Source of the DNA: a virus
Direction: 5' to 3' (one strand)
IMG/VR virus record: IMGVR_UViG_3300012988_000001
Location: 310,414 to 366,160 of that record
DNA length: 55,747 nucleotides
The number at the start of each line of letters is the position of its first letter. Within the stretch, counting starts at the first letter, position 1. The position numbers were made by a program, and so were the translations under genes. The notes beneath the pieces were generated by a model, which saw only the letters and a list, made by a program, of their open reading frames with translations, had not been told where the DNA came from and searched no databases. Below are positions 1,338 to 51,991 of this stretch, in pieces.

Positions 1338-1366
1338 GGGACAAAATGAACTTTTTGTCCTATAAT
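1338..1366 (+). promoter_or_regulatory. GGGACA-class promoter with inverted repeat (copy 1)
   Basis: GGGACA at 1338-1343, 17 bp, TATAAT at 1361-1366. The arms GGACA and TGTCC form an inverted repeat with a 12-base spacer, and TGTCC abuts the -10 box. The same arrangement with identical spacing occurs at 8242, 21984 and 51963. It faces the structured noncoding region and the tRNA. Confidence 0.75.
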
Positions 1367-1372
1367 ATAAGT

Positions 1373-1620
1373 ACAGGAAGGGATGGGTCATCGGGACCGT
1401 AGAAAGCGAAGGGTGCAATGAGCGACGGCAATAGATGCATATAGTAGTGGCTTTAGGAACCTTCCTGTGAAATTTCGTTGAGTAGCTTAAGGGAGAGCCG
1501 CAGGTAATAACGATAAGGTCACCTGTCAGCGTGGATTAAAACACCACCTCAACAACACAATTTGGAATCCAACAGCAATTTAATCATCGGCTTATATGAA
1601 AAACAATGGATTCCAGCTTT
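1373..1620 (+). ncRNA. structured noncoding leader RNA upstream of tRNA-Leu
   Basis: About 250 bases without a credible gene lie between a strong promoter and a tRNA. The first segment is closed by a perfect 9-bp helix, ACAGGAAGG (1373-1381) with CCTTCCTGT (1460-1468), starting about where transcription would begin. Further helices are CAGGT...ACCTG near 1501-1525 and GTGG...CCAC near 1531-1547. It may be a stable phage RNA processed from the tRNA precursor. I do not recognise an Rfam-type family. Confidence 0.5.
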
Positions 1621-1708
1621 CGGGGTATGGTCAAATTGGTAAAGGCACGACACTTAAAATGTCGCGGGGAATTTCCCCTTCTCGGTTCGAGTCCGAGTAC
1701 CCCGACCA
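1621..1708 (+). tRNA. tRNA-Leu(TAA)
   Basis: The acceptor stem CGGGGTA (1621-1627) pairs with TACCCCG (1698-1704), followed by discriminator A and an encoded CCA (1706-1708). The anticodon arm CGACA-CTTAAAA-TGTCG gives anticodon TAA (1655-1657). A long variable arm (GGGG-AATTT-CCCC) marks a class II tRNA, and the T arm CTCGG-TTCGAGT-CCGAG is canonical. It reads UUA leucine codons. Confidence 0.95.
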
Positions 1709-1731
1709 CATTAATAGAATAGGATAAACAT

Positions 1732-2160
1732 ATGTTTACTCCAGAAGAATATGAGTTTTACAATATACAATTAGACCGTTCATTGAATGGTGAAATAGTT
1801 CTTAATGATGTTTTATGTAAAGCAGAAGAGATGGACCCAGTTGCGTATTGGCACGATGGTGATGATGCTGTATTTGGTGAATTCACTAATGTAACTATAT
1901 ACAACAGTACTGATCCTAGAATGGATTATTACATTGACATATTCCCAGATCACATTGATTTTGAATATAGTGGGAATACAGGTAATCCAAGTGAACTATC
2001 ACGTGTTTTGCGTACTGAACTATTCAGTACTGAAAGCGATGAAGAATTCTTTCAAGTTGGGACTATTCAAGATCTTACCTTTATGGAAGAAACAATATTA
2101 CGAAAATTTATTAAATTGTCCCTCATGGCAAGGACTAATTTAAACAACAGGGAAAGCTAA
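1732..2160 (+). CDS. hypothetical protein (142 aa), DEFFQ-type accessory family
   Basis: First gene after the tRNA, probably on the same transcript, with AGGATAAAC before the ATG. Acidic, with a C-terminal DEEFFQVGTIQDLTF followed by a helix, resembling the protein at 762. The stop codon lies in the loop of a terminator hairpin. Function unknown. Confidence 0.8.
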   Translation: MFTPEEYEFYNIQLDRSLNGEIVLNDVLCKAEEMDPVAYWHDGDDAVFGEFTNVTIYNSTDPRMDYYIDIFPDHIDFEYSGNTGNPSELSRVLRTELFSTESDEEFFQVGTIQDLTFMEETILRKFIKLSLMARTNLNNRES

Positions 2161-2175
2161 TGCTTTCCTTTTTTT
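2151..2175 (+). terminator. rho-independent terminator overlapping a stop codon
   Basis: GGAAAGC (2151-2157), loop TAAT, GCTTTCC (2162-2168), then seven T. The TAA stop of the preceding gene lies in the loop. Confidence 0.85.
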
Positions 2176-2188
2176 ATGAGGGTATAAA

Positions 2189-50265: not shown

Positions 50266-50275
50266 GTCTCTCTCC

Positions 50276-51193
50276 TTATGTTAACTTAAATGCTTGTGTT
50301 GTCGTTGCACCAGAATTATTCTTTCCACCCATAGTGAGTATAAAATTATTCGCACTATTCGCGAATATATTACAGTTCACCAAATAACTAGGAACCGTAC
50401 CCATAGACTCAATAGAAGAATTACCCGGAACATATGTGTACATATTACCAGTACTATAACCAAACAATACAACAATGTCTTTATATGCAGCTATACGCCC
50501 TATAGCCTCTGTAGTGCTCAATATGACTCGCCACGTCCCAGACACCGTATTATACCCCATTAGGTATAACGTGCTCCCTGTGCCTCCCATAACCAATAAT
50601 TCAGTACCAACCAACACCATGCTCGTTCCCAATGCCATAGGATATGGGGAAGTGGCTAATGTCGTCCACGTTGAAGTACTGATATCAAATACTGACGCTG
50701 TGTTAGCCGCCGCTAATGTACTATAAGAACCAAACAACCACAACTTATTATCATAACATACCATAGAAGCATGTAATCTGGCTGCTGGTTTCGTCCCTAA
50801 AGTATTAACTAAACTCCACGCATTAGTACTGACATTATATACATATAAATCGTTCTGCATACTTCCACCCGCTGGTAATGATGTACTACCACCAAATGAA
50901 TATACTCTGTTATTAACATCATCAAATGCCATTGCTGGTGCACTTCGGTTTGAACCAAATTGTGCTAGCTGTGTCCAGTTATTAGTACTAGGATTATATC
51001 TCCAAAAGTCTCGGTAATATGTATTGGTCAGTACTCCACCCATAGCATATATCTCTCCTGTACTCGCCGCACAAAAACCCATCTCCGCTCTTGTACTCAT
51101 TGCACTGTAAGTCTGTGCTTCGTAATTTCCTAAGAATGAATTTTGTGGTATAATCACATTCCCGTACTTTACTATCCTCGCAAAAGGTATCAT
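50276..51193 (-). CDS. tag-bearing Kelch-like beta-propeller adhesin 9 (305 aa)
   Basis: MIPFARIVKYGN tag followed by five to six Kelch blades: YAMGG...DFWRYNPSTNNWTQLA, RVYSFGGS...DLYVYNVSTNAWSLV, KLWLFGSY...SVFDISTSTWTTL, ELLVMGGTG...LMGYNTVSGTWRV. It is the only Kelch member, showing that the tag is combined with different folds. Overlaps adhesin 10 by ATGA. Confidence 0.8.
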   Translation of the reverse strand: MIPFARIVKYGNVIIPQNSFLGNYEAQTYSAMSTRAEMGFCAASTGEIYAMGGVLTNTYYRDFWRYNPSTNNWTQLAQFGSNRSAPAMAFDDVNNRVYSFGGSTSLPAGGSMQNDLYVYNVSTNAWSLVNTLGTKPAARLHASMVCYDNKLWLFGSYSTLAAANTASVFDISTSTWTTLATSPYPMALGTSMVLVGTELLVMGGTGSTLYLMGYNTVSGTWRVILSTTEAIGRIAAYKDIVVLFGYSTGNMYTYVPGNSSIESMGTVPSYLVNCNIFANSANNFILTMGGKNNSGATTTQAFKLT

Positions 51194-51903
51194 GAATAAA
51201 TCTCCTGTACTGTGAATCCGGTAACCGGATACTTCATACCAGCCCGCATCCGGTATCTCTCAACTATAGCACTATTTGTAGGAGTACTGTTATATACATC
51301 ACCACATAAAGTGAAAGCAGCCAACGATCCACCAGTACTTAATACATCGTACTGTGCAGTAGGTACACCATCTATATACAAATAATGTCGGTTTATTGAC
51401 GAATCATACATAAAACAATAATGATGCCACACTGGAGTATTCCATGGAATTGCAGTGTAATTGTAATATTGAACGTTATTACCTAATTTAAATGTCGCAG
51501 AACTACCACTATAATCATTTAATAATTGATATTTGGGAGTACTAGCCCACGGACCGCTAAATGTATTTAAACAATTAATTGCACCAAAAAATGTATATCC
51601 TGATATCAATGTCCGGTGCCAAAAATCTAAAGTATATGATGATGTAACCCATTGAACCGGAAAACCATTTTTACCTATAATACTCTTCTTTACTTGTACC
51701 CCTGAACCATATGGCATATCAGTTCCAATACTGATAGTAGCTGAACCAGCAGCACCATTTATATCCTGTACAGTTATCGTATTACCTACATAATCAGTAA
51801 ACTCTGTACTAGAAAATATAGTACTATCCCATGCCAATAATGATCCACTGTACCATGGCAACACAGTGTTCCCGTACTTACTTATTCTCGCAAATGGTAT
51901 CAT
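51190..51903 (-). CDS. tag-bearing LamG/concanavalin-like adhesin 10 (237 aa)
   Basis: First gene of the array, with GGAGGGGGG before the ATG. MIPFARISKYGN tag, then YTLDFWHRT, WHHYCFMYDSSINRHYLYIDGVPTAQ, FTLCGDVYN, ERYRMRAGMKY: a LamG-type jelly roll. Shares FTDYVGNT with adhesin 3. Probably glycan binding. Confidence 0.78.
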   Translation of the reverse strand: MIPFARISKYGNTVLPWYSGSLLAWDSTIFSSTEFTDYVGNTITVQDINGAAGSATISIGTDMPYGSGVQVKKSIIGKNGFPVQWVTSSYTLDFWHRTLISGYTFFGAINCLNTFSGPWASTPKYQLLNDYSGSSATFKLGNNVQYYNYTAIPWNTPVWHHYCFMYDSSINRHYLYIDGVPTAQYDVLSTGGSLAAFTLCGDVYNSTPTNSAIVERYRMRAGMKYPVTGFTVQEIYS

Positions 51904-51922
51904 TTCCCCCCTCCATAATTTT

Positions 51923-51942
51923 CCATTATTACATATTTACCC
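51923..51942 (-). promoter_or_regulatory. candidate late promoter motif of the adhesin array
   Basis: Minus strand reads GGGTAAATATGTAATAATGG, 20-39 bases upstream of the first adhesin ATG. It shares GGTAAATATG with the motif before the Ig-like gene (10415-10431) and TAATAA with the one at 48410. No good -35 box is seen, as for T4-type late promoters. Confidence 0.5.
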
Positions 51943-51962
51943 AAATTCCCCAAAAGATTCTT

Positions 51963-51991
51963 GGGACAAACACCACAAAATGTCCTATAAT
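51963..51991 (+). promoter_or_regulatory. GGGACA-class promoter with inverted repeat (copy 4)
   Basis: GGGACA (51963-51968), 17 bp, TATAAT (51986-51991), arms GGACA/TGTCC. Drives the 337-residue gene and diverges from the adhesin array. Confidence 0.75.

Follow-up and report, generated by a model that had tools for sequence, protein, structure and literature searches.

About 35 promoters of a single class, most of them TGGGACA-N17-TATAAT, are distributed over the genome of the jumbo phage analyzed here, and they are very probably the promoters of the phage's own 322-residue sigma factor, which would redirect host RNA polymerase to a middle-type regulon. Across related jumbo phages, it is likely that the sigma factor and its ~35 promoters switched their -35 code in concert, in one clade together with the length of the spacer, and that an undescribed, multi-copy family of structured noncoding RNAs, the examined copies of which lie directly behind promoters of the phage-sigma type, has been kept across the RaK2/121Q/CBB/Munch jumbo phages. 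The stretch of DNA from which the analysis started, referred to as the window, is the right-hand 55.7 kb (coordinates 310414-366160) of a viral record of 366,160 bases. Based on DNA and protein similarity, the nearest relatives of the phage are the Salmonella phages Munch, SE_PL, and 7t3 and the Klebsiella phage fENko-Kae01, and the more distant relatives are CBB, GAP32, BF, 121Q, and RaK2.

Distribution and gene content of the promoter class

The first-pass annotation of the window had singled out four promoters with a GGACA/TGTCC inverted repeat and an unusual -35 element (Table 1). All four are exact, located on the + strand without mismatches and with 17 nt between GRGACA and TATAAT, and each precedes the target ascribed to it, namely two noncoding RNA regions and ORFs of 302 and 337 residues, the latter without a match in Pfam, PHROG, or phage records. 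The -35 element is GGGACA or GAGACA and not the canonical TTGACA of the host sigma70, and the -10 element has the canonical host sigma70 form, an exact TATAAT at a distance of 17 nt (16-18 nt being accepted). In the window, GRGACAAA-N10-TGTCCTATAATAT has four exact occurrences and no others at up to three mismatches; it had no matches in 100 dinucleotide shuffles of the window and would be expected there ~2e-7 times from base composition.

The pattern is thereby confirmed, but the four sites are only part of the class, as the genome holds ~35 such promoters. The pattern GGGACAAA-N10-TGTNN-TATAAT returned 18 exact matches, 28 matches at up to one mismatch, and 34 at up to three mismatches, all on the + strand, and the reversed control returned a single match. 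Approximately 32 of the 34 look genuine (the other two are a TTGACA site and a poor match with three mismatches), and three further class sites have a spacer that is shorter by one base. The majority form is TGGGACA-N17-TATAAT with TGTGA ahead of the -10, and most sites read either TGTGA or TGTGC at this position. Class sites are likewise confined to one strand each in Munch (32 sites), fENko-Kae01 (31), and the IMG/VR relative G001 (33).

Close downstream ORFs usually begin 13-65 nt past the class site, behind a ribosome-binding site. In the present phage and fENko-Kae01, the genes behind or adjoining class sites include replication and recombination genes (sliding clamp, DNA polymerase, ssDNA-binding protein, exonucleases, primase-helicase, and topoisomerase) as well as a Clp-type ATPase, a DUF2828 protein, dihydrofolate reductase, tRNAs, and one virion structural protein. 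The gene content is a middle-type set, with exceptions, and the core of the regulon consists of replication, nucleotide-metabolism, tRNA, and noncoding RNA genes and not of isolated proteins. It should be noted that tandem class promoters, one TGTCC and one TGTGC, occur ~110 nt apart ahead of the ssDNA-binding protein gene (L100:9740-9880), a pair that is kept in Munch and Hallingskeid.

Table 1. Positions of the promoters, genes, and RNAs discussed in the text (window positions unless another record or locus is named)
Feature	Position	Strand	Remarks
Class promoter 1, TGTCC flavour	1338..1366 (GGGACA 1338-1343, TATAAT 1361-1366)	+	precedes noncoding RNA and tRNA-Leu
Noncoding transcript region	1369..1731 (conserved part about 1467-1641)	+	behind promoter 1; homology in relatives
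tRNA-Leu (TAA anticodon)	1621..1708	+	behind promoter 1
Class promoter 2, TGTCC flavour	8242..8270 (GAGACA 8242-8247, TATAAT 8265-8270)	+	precedes virion protein gene
302-aa protein	8301..9209	+	behind promoter 2; PHROG 14991, virion structural protein
Host-type promoter, TTGACC-N17-TATTAT	15287..15315	+	ahead of sigma gene; by sequence only
Phage sigma factor, 322 aa	15364..16332	+	proposed class reader; regions 2, 3, and divergent region 4 (Pfam for regions 2 and 3, orthologues, region 4 model)
Sigma region 4	16075..16329	+	recognition helix SSRTSLHRCYND at about 16249-16311
Class promoter 3, TGTCC flavour	21984..22012 (GGGACA 21984-21989, TATAAT 22007-22012)	+	precedes structured noncoding RNA
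Structured noncoding RNA of multi-copy family	22015..22552 (homology 22037-22482)	+	behind promoter 3
Class promoter 4, TGTCC flavour	51963..51991 (GGGACA 51963-51968, TATAAT 51986-51991)	+	precedes 337-aa ORF without relatives
337-aa ORF	52022..53035	+	behind promoter 4
Copies of the noncoding RNA family	L107:4858-5416, L109:2646-3214, L105:2893-3399, L103:4279-4791		
Orthologue of promoter 1	Munch 298228		TGTGA
Orthologue of promoter 2	Munch 305376 (gene at 305433)		TGTGA
Orthologue of promoter 3	Munch 316349		TGTCC kept
Orthologue of tRNA-Thr promoter	fENko 270745		TGTGA
Orthologue of ssDNA-binding-protein promoter	Munch 208958		TGTGA

The -35 element and the phage sigma factor

Paired words were counted without bias over 100 kb of each of ten phages, with later refinement of the motifs, and in nine of the ten a clade-specific -35 element with TATAAT or TATACT ranked among the top word pairs. 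Every relative examined carries the class with its own -35: TGAAACG in CBB, GAP32, and BF, TGRAACG in Kaldavass, TGAAACR with TATACT in XaC1, TGGGATA or TGAGACA in Hallingskeid, TGAACA in RaK2, TGGGACA in Munch and the present phage, and TGRGACA, determined by pattern search, in PBECO4. With the inclusive form TGRRAYR-N13-TGN-TATAAT, nine genomes have 33-36 sites each, Hallingskeid has 28, and 121Q and PBECO4 have 14-16, on one strand in each genome and with no match in the reversed control. When promoters were grouped by downstream gene, the -35 matched the clade and not the gene. The topoisomerase promoter provides the clearest switch, with GAAACA versus GAGACA ahead of a spacer that is recognisably the same in most phages and one base longer in the Munch clade, and a single exception among the orthologous promoters (TGAAATGG) is nearly alike in both kinds of phage. 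In seven phages belonging to these clades, TTGAC-type (host-type) promoters persist in the early region, and the drift of the -35 is therefore confined to this class, with the control comprising those seven phages, as the early-region stretches chosen from GAP32, BF, and XaC1 had few or no TTGAC promoters.

The sigma70-family gene found above cut-off in the genome is located within the window (Table 1) and its orthologues range from 84% to 30% identity. Region 2, responsible for -10 reading and core binding (PF04542, E 6.8e-14), and region 3 (PF04539, E 2.7e-09) both score above cut-off. Region 4 of the present sigma falls below the Pfam cut-off, and a helix-turn-helix was assigned through the 121Q orthologue, whose region 4 passes PF04545 (27.2 vs 24.1 bits), and through alignment of the predicted structure. 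The region 4 model (pLDDT 86) contains a small beta-hairpin within the helix-turn-helix and aligns to region 4 of SigA and sigmaS with Z up to 9.7; Foldseek gives this model weak E-values, the best being 0.09, at probabilities of up to 1.00. The structure search used the region 4 model only, as the full-length sigma model (pLDDT 51) is of too low quality.

The predicted recognition helix varies with the fourth base of the -35, reading S[RH][TS][ST][LI]HR in phages that have G there and SK[AP]TLSRR in phages that have A, and RaK2 combines the helix VRGTLHYK with TGAACA. Counted by site, phages with S[RH]xxxHR sigmas have G at 53 sites and A at three (3 of 56 break the base-4 rule), and phages with SK[AP]TLSRR sigmas have A at 71 sites and G at none. 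Five IMG/VR genomes found afterwards through the sigma alone (SKATLSRRY) contain 33-36 sites each, and all sites read TGRAAYR in the four genomes whose sites were listed. Additionally, sigma region 4 has two 2-residue insertions in the clade with the spacer that is longer by one base. Across related phages, the code of the promoters and the segment of the sigma predicted to read it have changed together. There are few independent switches in the sigma tree, and the correlations between -35 and sigma are consequently strong rather than a formal proof; a Fisher test on the site counts takes no account of relatedness, and its value does not serve as a probability.

The sigma gene belongs to the early region and follows a host-type promoter, and host sigma70-RNA polymerase would therefore produce the sigma early. 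Region 2 of the phage sigma would read the TATAAT -10, usually in its extended form (TGTGA), and the divergent region 4 would read the TGGGACA -35, an element that host sigma70 would read poorly. The host core polymerase would then be redirected to ~35 middle-type units for DNA replication and recombination, nucleotide metabolism, proteolysis, tRNAs, structured noncoding RNAs, and a few other functions, and across related jumbo phages the -35 and sigma region 4.2 evolve together. The computational analysis shows, from sequence, the class and its distribution, the -35 switch at orthologous promoters, the correlation with the sigma, and the predicted sigma4 fold. From these patterns we infer the binding of the phage sigma to the class sites, the timing, and the use of the host core polymerase, and many of the extended -10 sites could serve host sigma70 too.

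A terminator-like hairpin (ATGCCAGTTAAAGAAGACTGGCATTTTT) at 15310-15350 separates the sigma gene from its host-type promoter, and Munch has an annotated terminator in the same place; attenuation of sigma synthesis is possible. Elsewhere in the window, an element AAAGGGTTGACTTCGGTCAGCCCTTTTTGC-TATAAT is repeated near 30753 and 35713 (+ strand), and its reverse complement occurs on the - strand near 40522, 39708, 37609, 18472, and 16375. The + strand copies form a terminator-like hairpin with TTGAC in the stem and the T-run in the spacer of a sigma70-type promoter, such that the element looks like a terminator-promoter fusion.

Alternative readings and the TGTCC flavour

The first-pass annotation had left the choice between a special factor, possibly the phage sigma, and an operator protein. 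The recurrence of the class, the concerted switching of the -35, the co-variation with region 4.2, and the unchanged TTGACA promoters give the sigma part of that proposal good comparative support. T4 middle promoters join a MotA box to a sigma70 -10 at middle-type genes, and the present class resembles them in gene content and in having a phage-specific box with a host-like -10, as would be expected of host sigma70 assisted by a phage activator on GGGACA in the style of MotA/AsiA. Such an activator is highly unlikely: unlike in T4, the box occupies the exact -35 position at the usual spacing of 16-17 nt, a full sigma factor co-varies with it, and the genome has no match to the MotA or AsiA families (PF09114 and PF09010), a search in which remote homologues could be missed; a so far unrecognised activator that co-varies as well would be a minor possibility. 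Host sigma70 alone might act through the consensus extended -10 (TGTGATATAAT), with GGGACA as a tolerated weak -35 and the phage factor unneeded, given that TATAAT is a perfect sigma70 -10 and that the TG typical of an extended -10 is present at most sites. This too is highly improbable, as no other part of the motif is as clade-specific or as strictly conserved as the -35, which would not be expected of a dispensable element, and the -35 shifts jointly at dozens of promoters while the TTGAC promoters of the same phages stay; further, the TGTCC flavour lacks the extended -10.

The operator part of the proposal, a single protein acting on the GGACA/TGTCC repeat, did not hold up. A dimeric repressor or activator of a small regulon would account for the inverted repeat at all four window sites and for the last five class sites along the genome, which are all TGTCC (hypergeometric p 1.7e-4, for a comparison picked after the data were seen), and RaK2 has a few GAACA...TGTTC sites. 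However, TGTCC is a minority flavour, present at 8 of the ~35 sites here and almost absent from close relatives (1 of 32 sites in Munch, 1 of 31 in fENko-Kae01, and 0 of 33 in G001), and is kept at only one of five orthologous promoters, the other four having TGTGA instead (Table 1). The repeat is thus conserved neither across the regulon nor among relatives, and in XaC1 TGTTC or TGTCC is paired with TGAAAC, which makes no inverted repeat, leaving the dimeric operator extremely improbable. An exact scan of IMG/VR with the TGTCC pattern had no matches, and relatives appeared on widening the pattern to TGTSM.

TGTCC takes away the TG of the extended -10, and it can be speculated that TGTCC sites have a stricter need for the -35 and, through it, for the phage sigma. 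Inspection by eye for a tie of the TGTCC flavour to RNA genes supports no such claim, as TGTGA sites precede RNA genes too.

Noncoding RNAs and comparison with known systems

The RNA behind promoter 3 belongs to a family with a length of about 450-550 nt that has at least four paralogues in the genome, near 40.9, 107.7, 187.9, and 269.3 kb, for at least five copies counting that in the window. Matches were identified in 39 phage records, none from outside this phage group. At 25 of 30 matched loci (some overlapping) a class promoter was found just upstream by pattern; four of the remaining five carry it with a -35 that deviates slightly (TGAAACC or TGGATCG), and the last, a stretch of RaK2, begins inside a class promoter with GTGATATAAT visible. 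An alignment of 24 copies yields 76 predicted pairs, 47 of which are changed on both sides in at least one sequence, and folds at -46.7 kcal/mol compared to -1.3 +/- 1.4 for column-shuffled alignments. The family had no match in Rfam, permissive thresholds included, and looks like an undescribed structured RNA family. The noncoding region behind promoter 1 is conserved at 88% over 177 nt in Munch and fENko and at 95% over 67 nt in the distant K64-1, and its part ahead of tRNA-Leu (1375-1620) had no Rfam match apart from tRNA. A 510-aa DUF2828/DUF7788 protein is encoded first behind a class promoter (L109:12574-14106) and carries the PHROGs name RNA-binding protein, making it a possible candidate for a partner of the noncoding RNAs.

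A related class was known before in CBB and GAP32, and the present class is a variant thereof. In Pectobacterium phage CBB, a second promoter class with a TGAAACG -35 and a TATA -10 (18 sites listed, with the motif noted in Cronobacter phage GAP32 too) stands beside RpoD-like early and ATAAATA late classes and occurs at DNA-synthesis genes (PMC5259590); 35 sites of the TGRRAYR class were found in CBB in this analysis. The second class shares with the present one its place in the programme, its architecture, an orthologous sigma factor, and orthologous promoters, which precede the same genes in several groups (e.g., topoisomerase). The differences are a TGGGACA -35, a spacer longer by one base, and a different sigma recognition helix in the present phage. 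The TGGGACA form has no match in CBB or GAP32, nor is TGAAACG the consensus here, and the present class is therefore a variant of the wider TGRRAYR class and not the same consensus. The accessible portion of the CBB study does not link the motif to a sigma factor (PMC5259590), and the RaK2 genome paper does not mention promoters. As far as the literature surveyed shows, the link to sigma region 4.2 and the co-variation with it, the shift in spacing, and the noncoding RNA regulon are new.

A phage sigma with its own bipartite promoters, and a code that differs among relatives, has a counterpart in the phiEco32-like phage 7-11. The sigma SaPh711_gp47 of that phage is reported to redirect host polymerase to bipartite promoters of its own, with related phages that differ in promoter code and are similar in promoter positions (PMC8948821). 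That system, shown by experiment, belongs to small phages and has a different sigma, the consensus GTAAtg-16-aCTA, and late genes as targets, whereas the present system, predicted from sequence, has a sigma70-family factor with regions 2-4 and the consensus TATAAT.

The related sigmas and their readable -35 codes constitute a natural series that allows for direct tests of region 4.2 specificity and of the evolution of promoter spacing while ~35 promoters must follow. The class also provides a promoter map for phages in which most genes are 'hypothetical', may furnish an orthogonal sigma/promoter pair for the laboratory, and opens a way into a large structured RNA family of which these phages maintain several copies. 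Separately, AGTACT/GTAC strings seem, by eye only, unusually frequent in the - strand genes of window positions 43000-52000.
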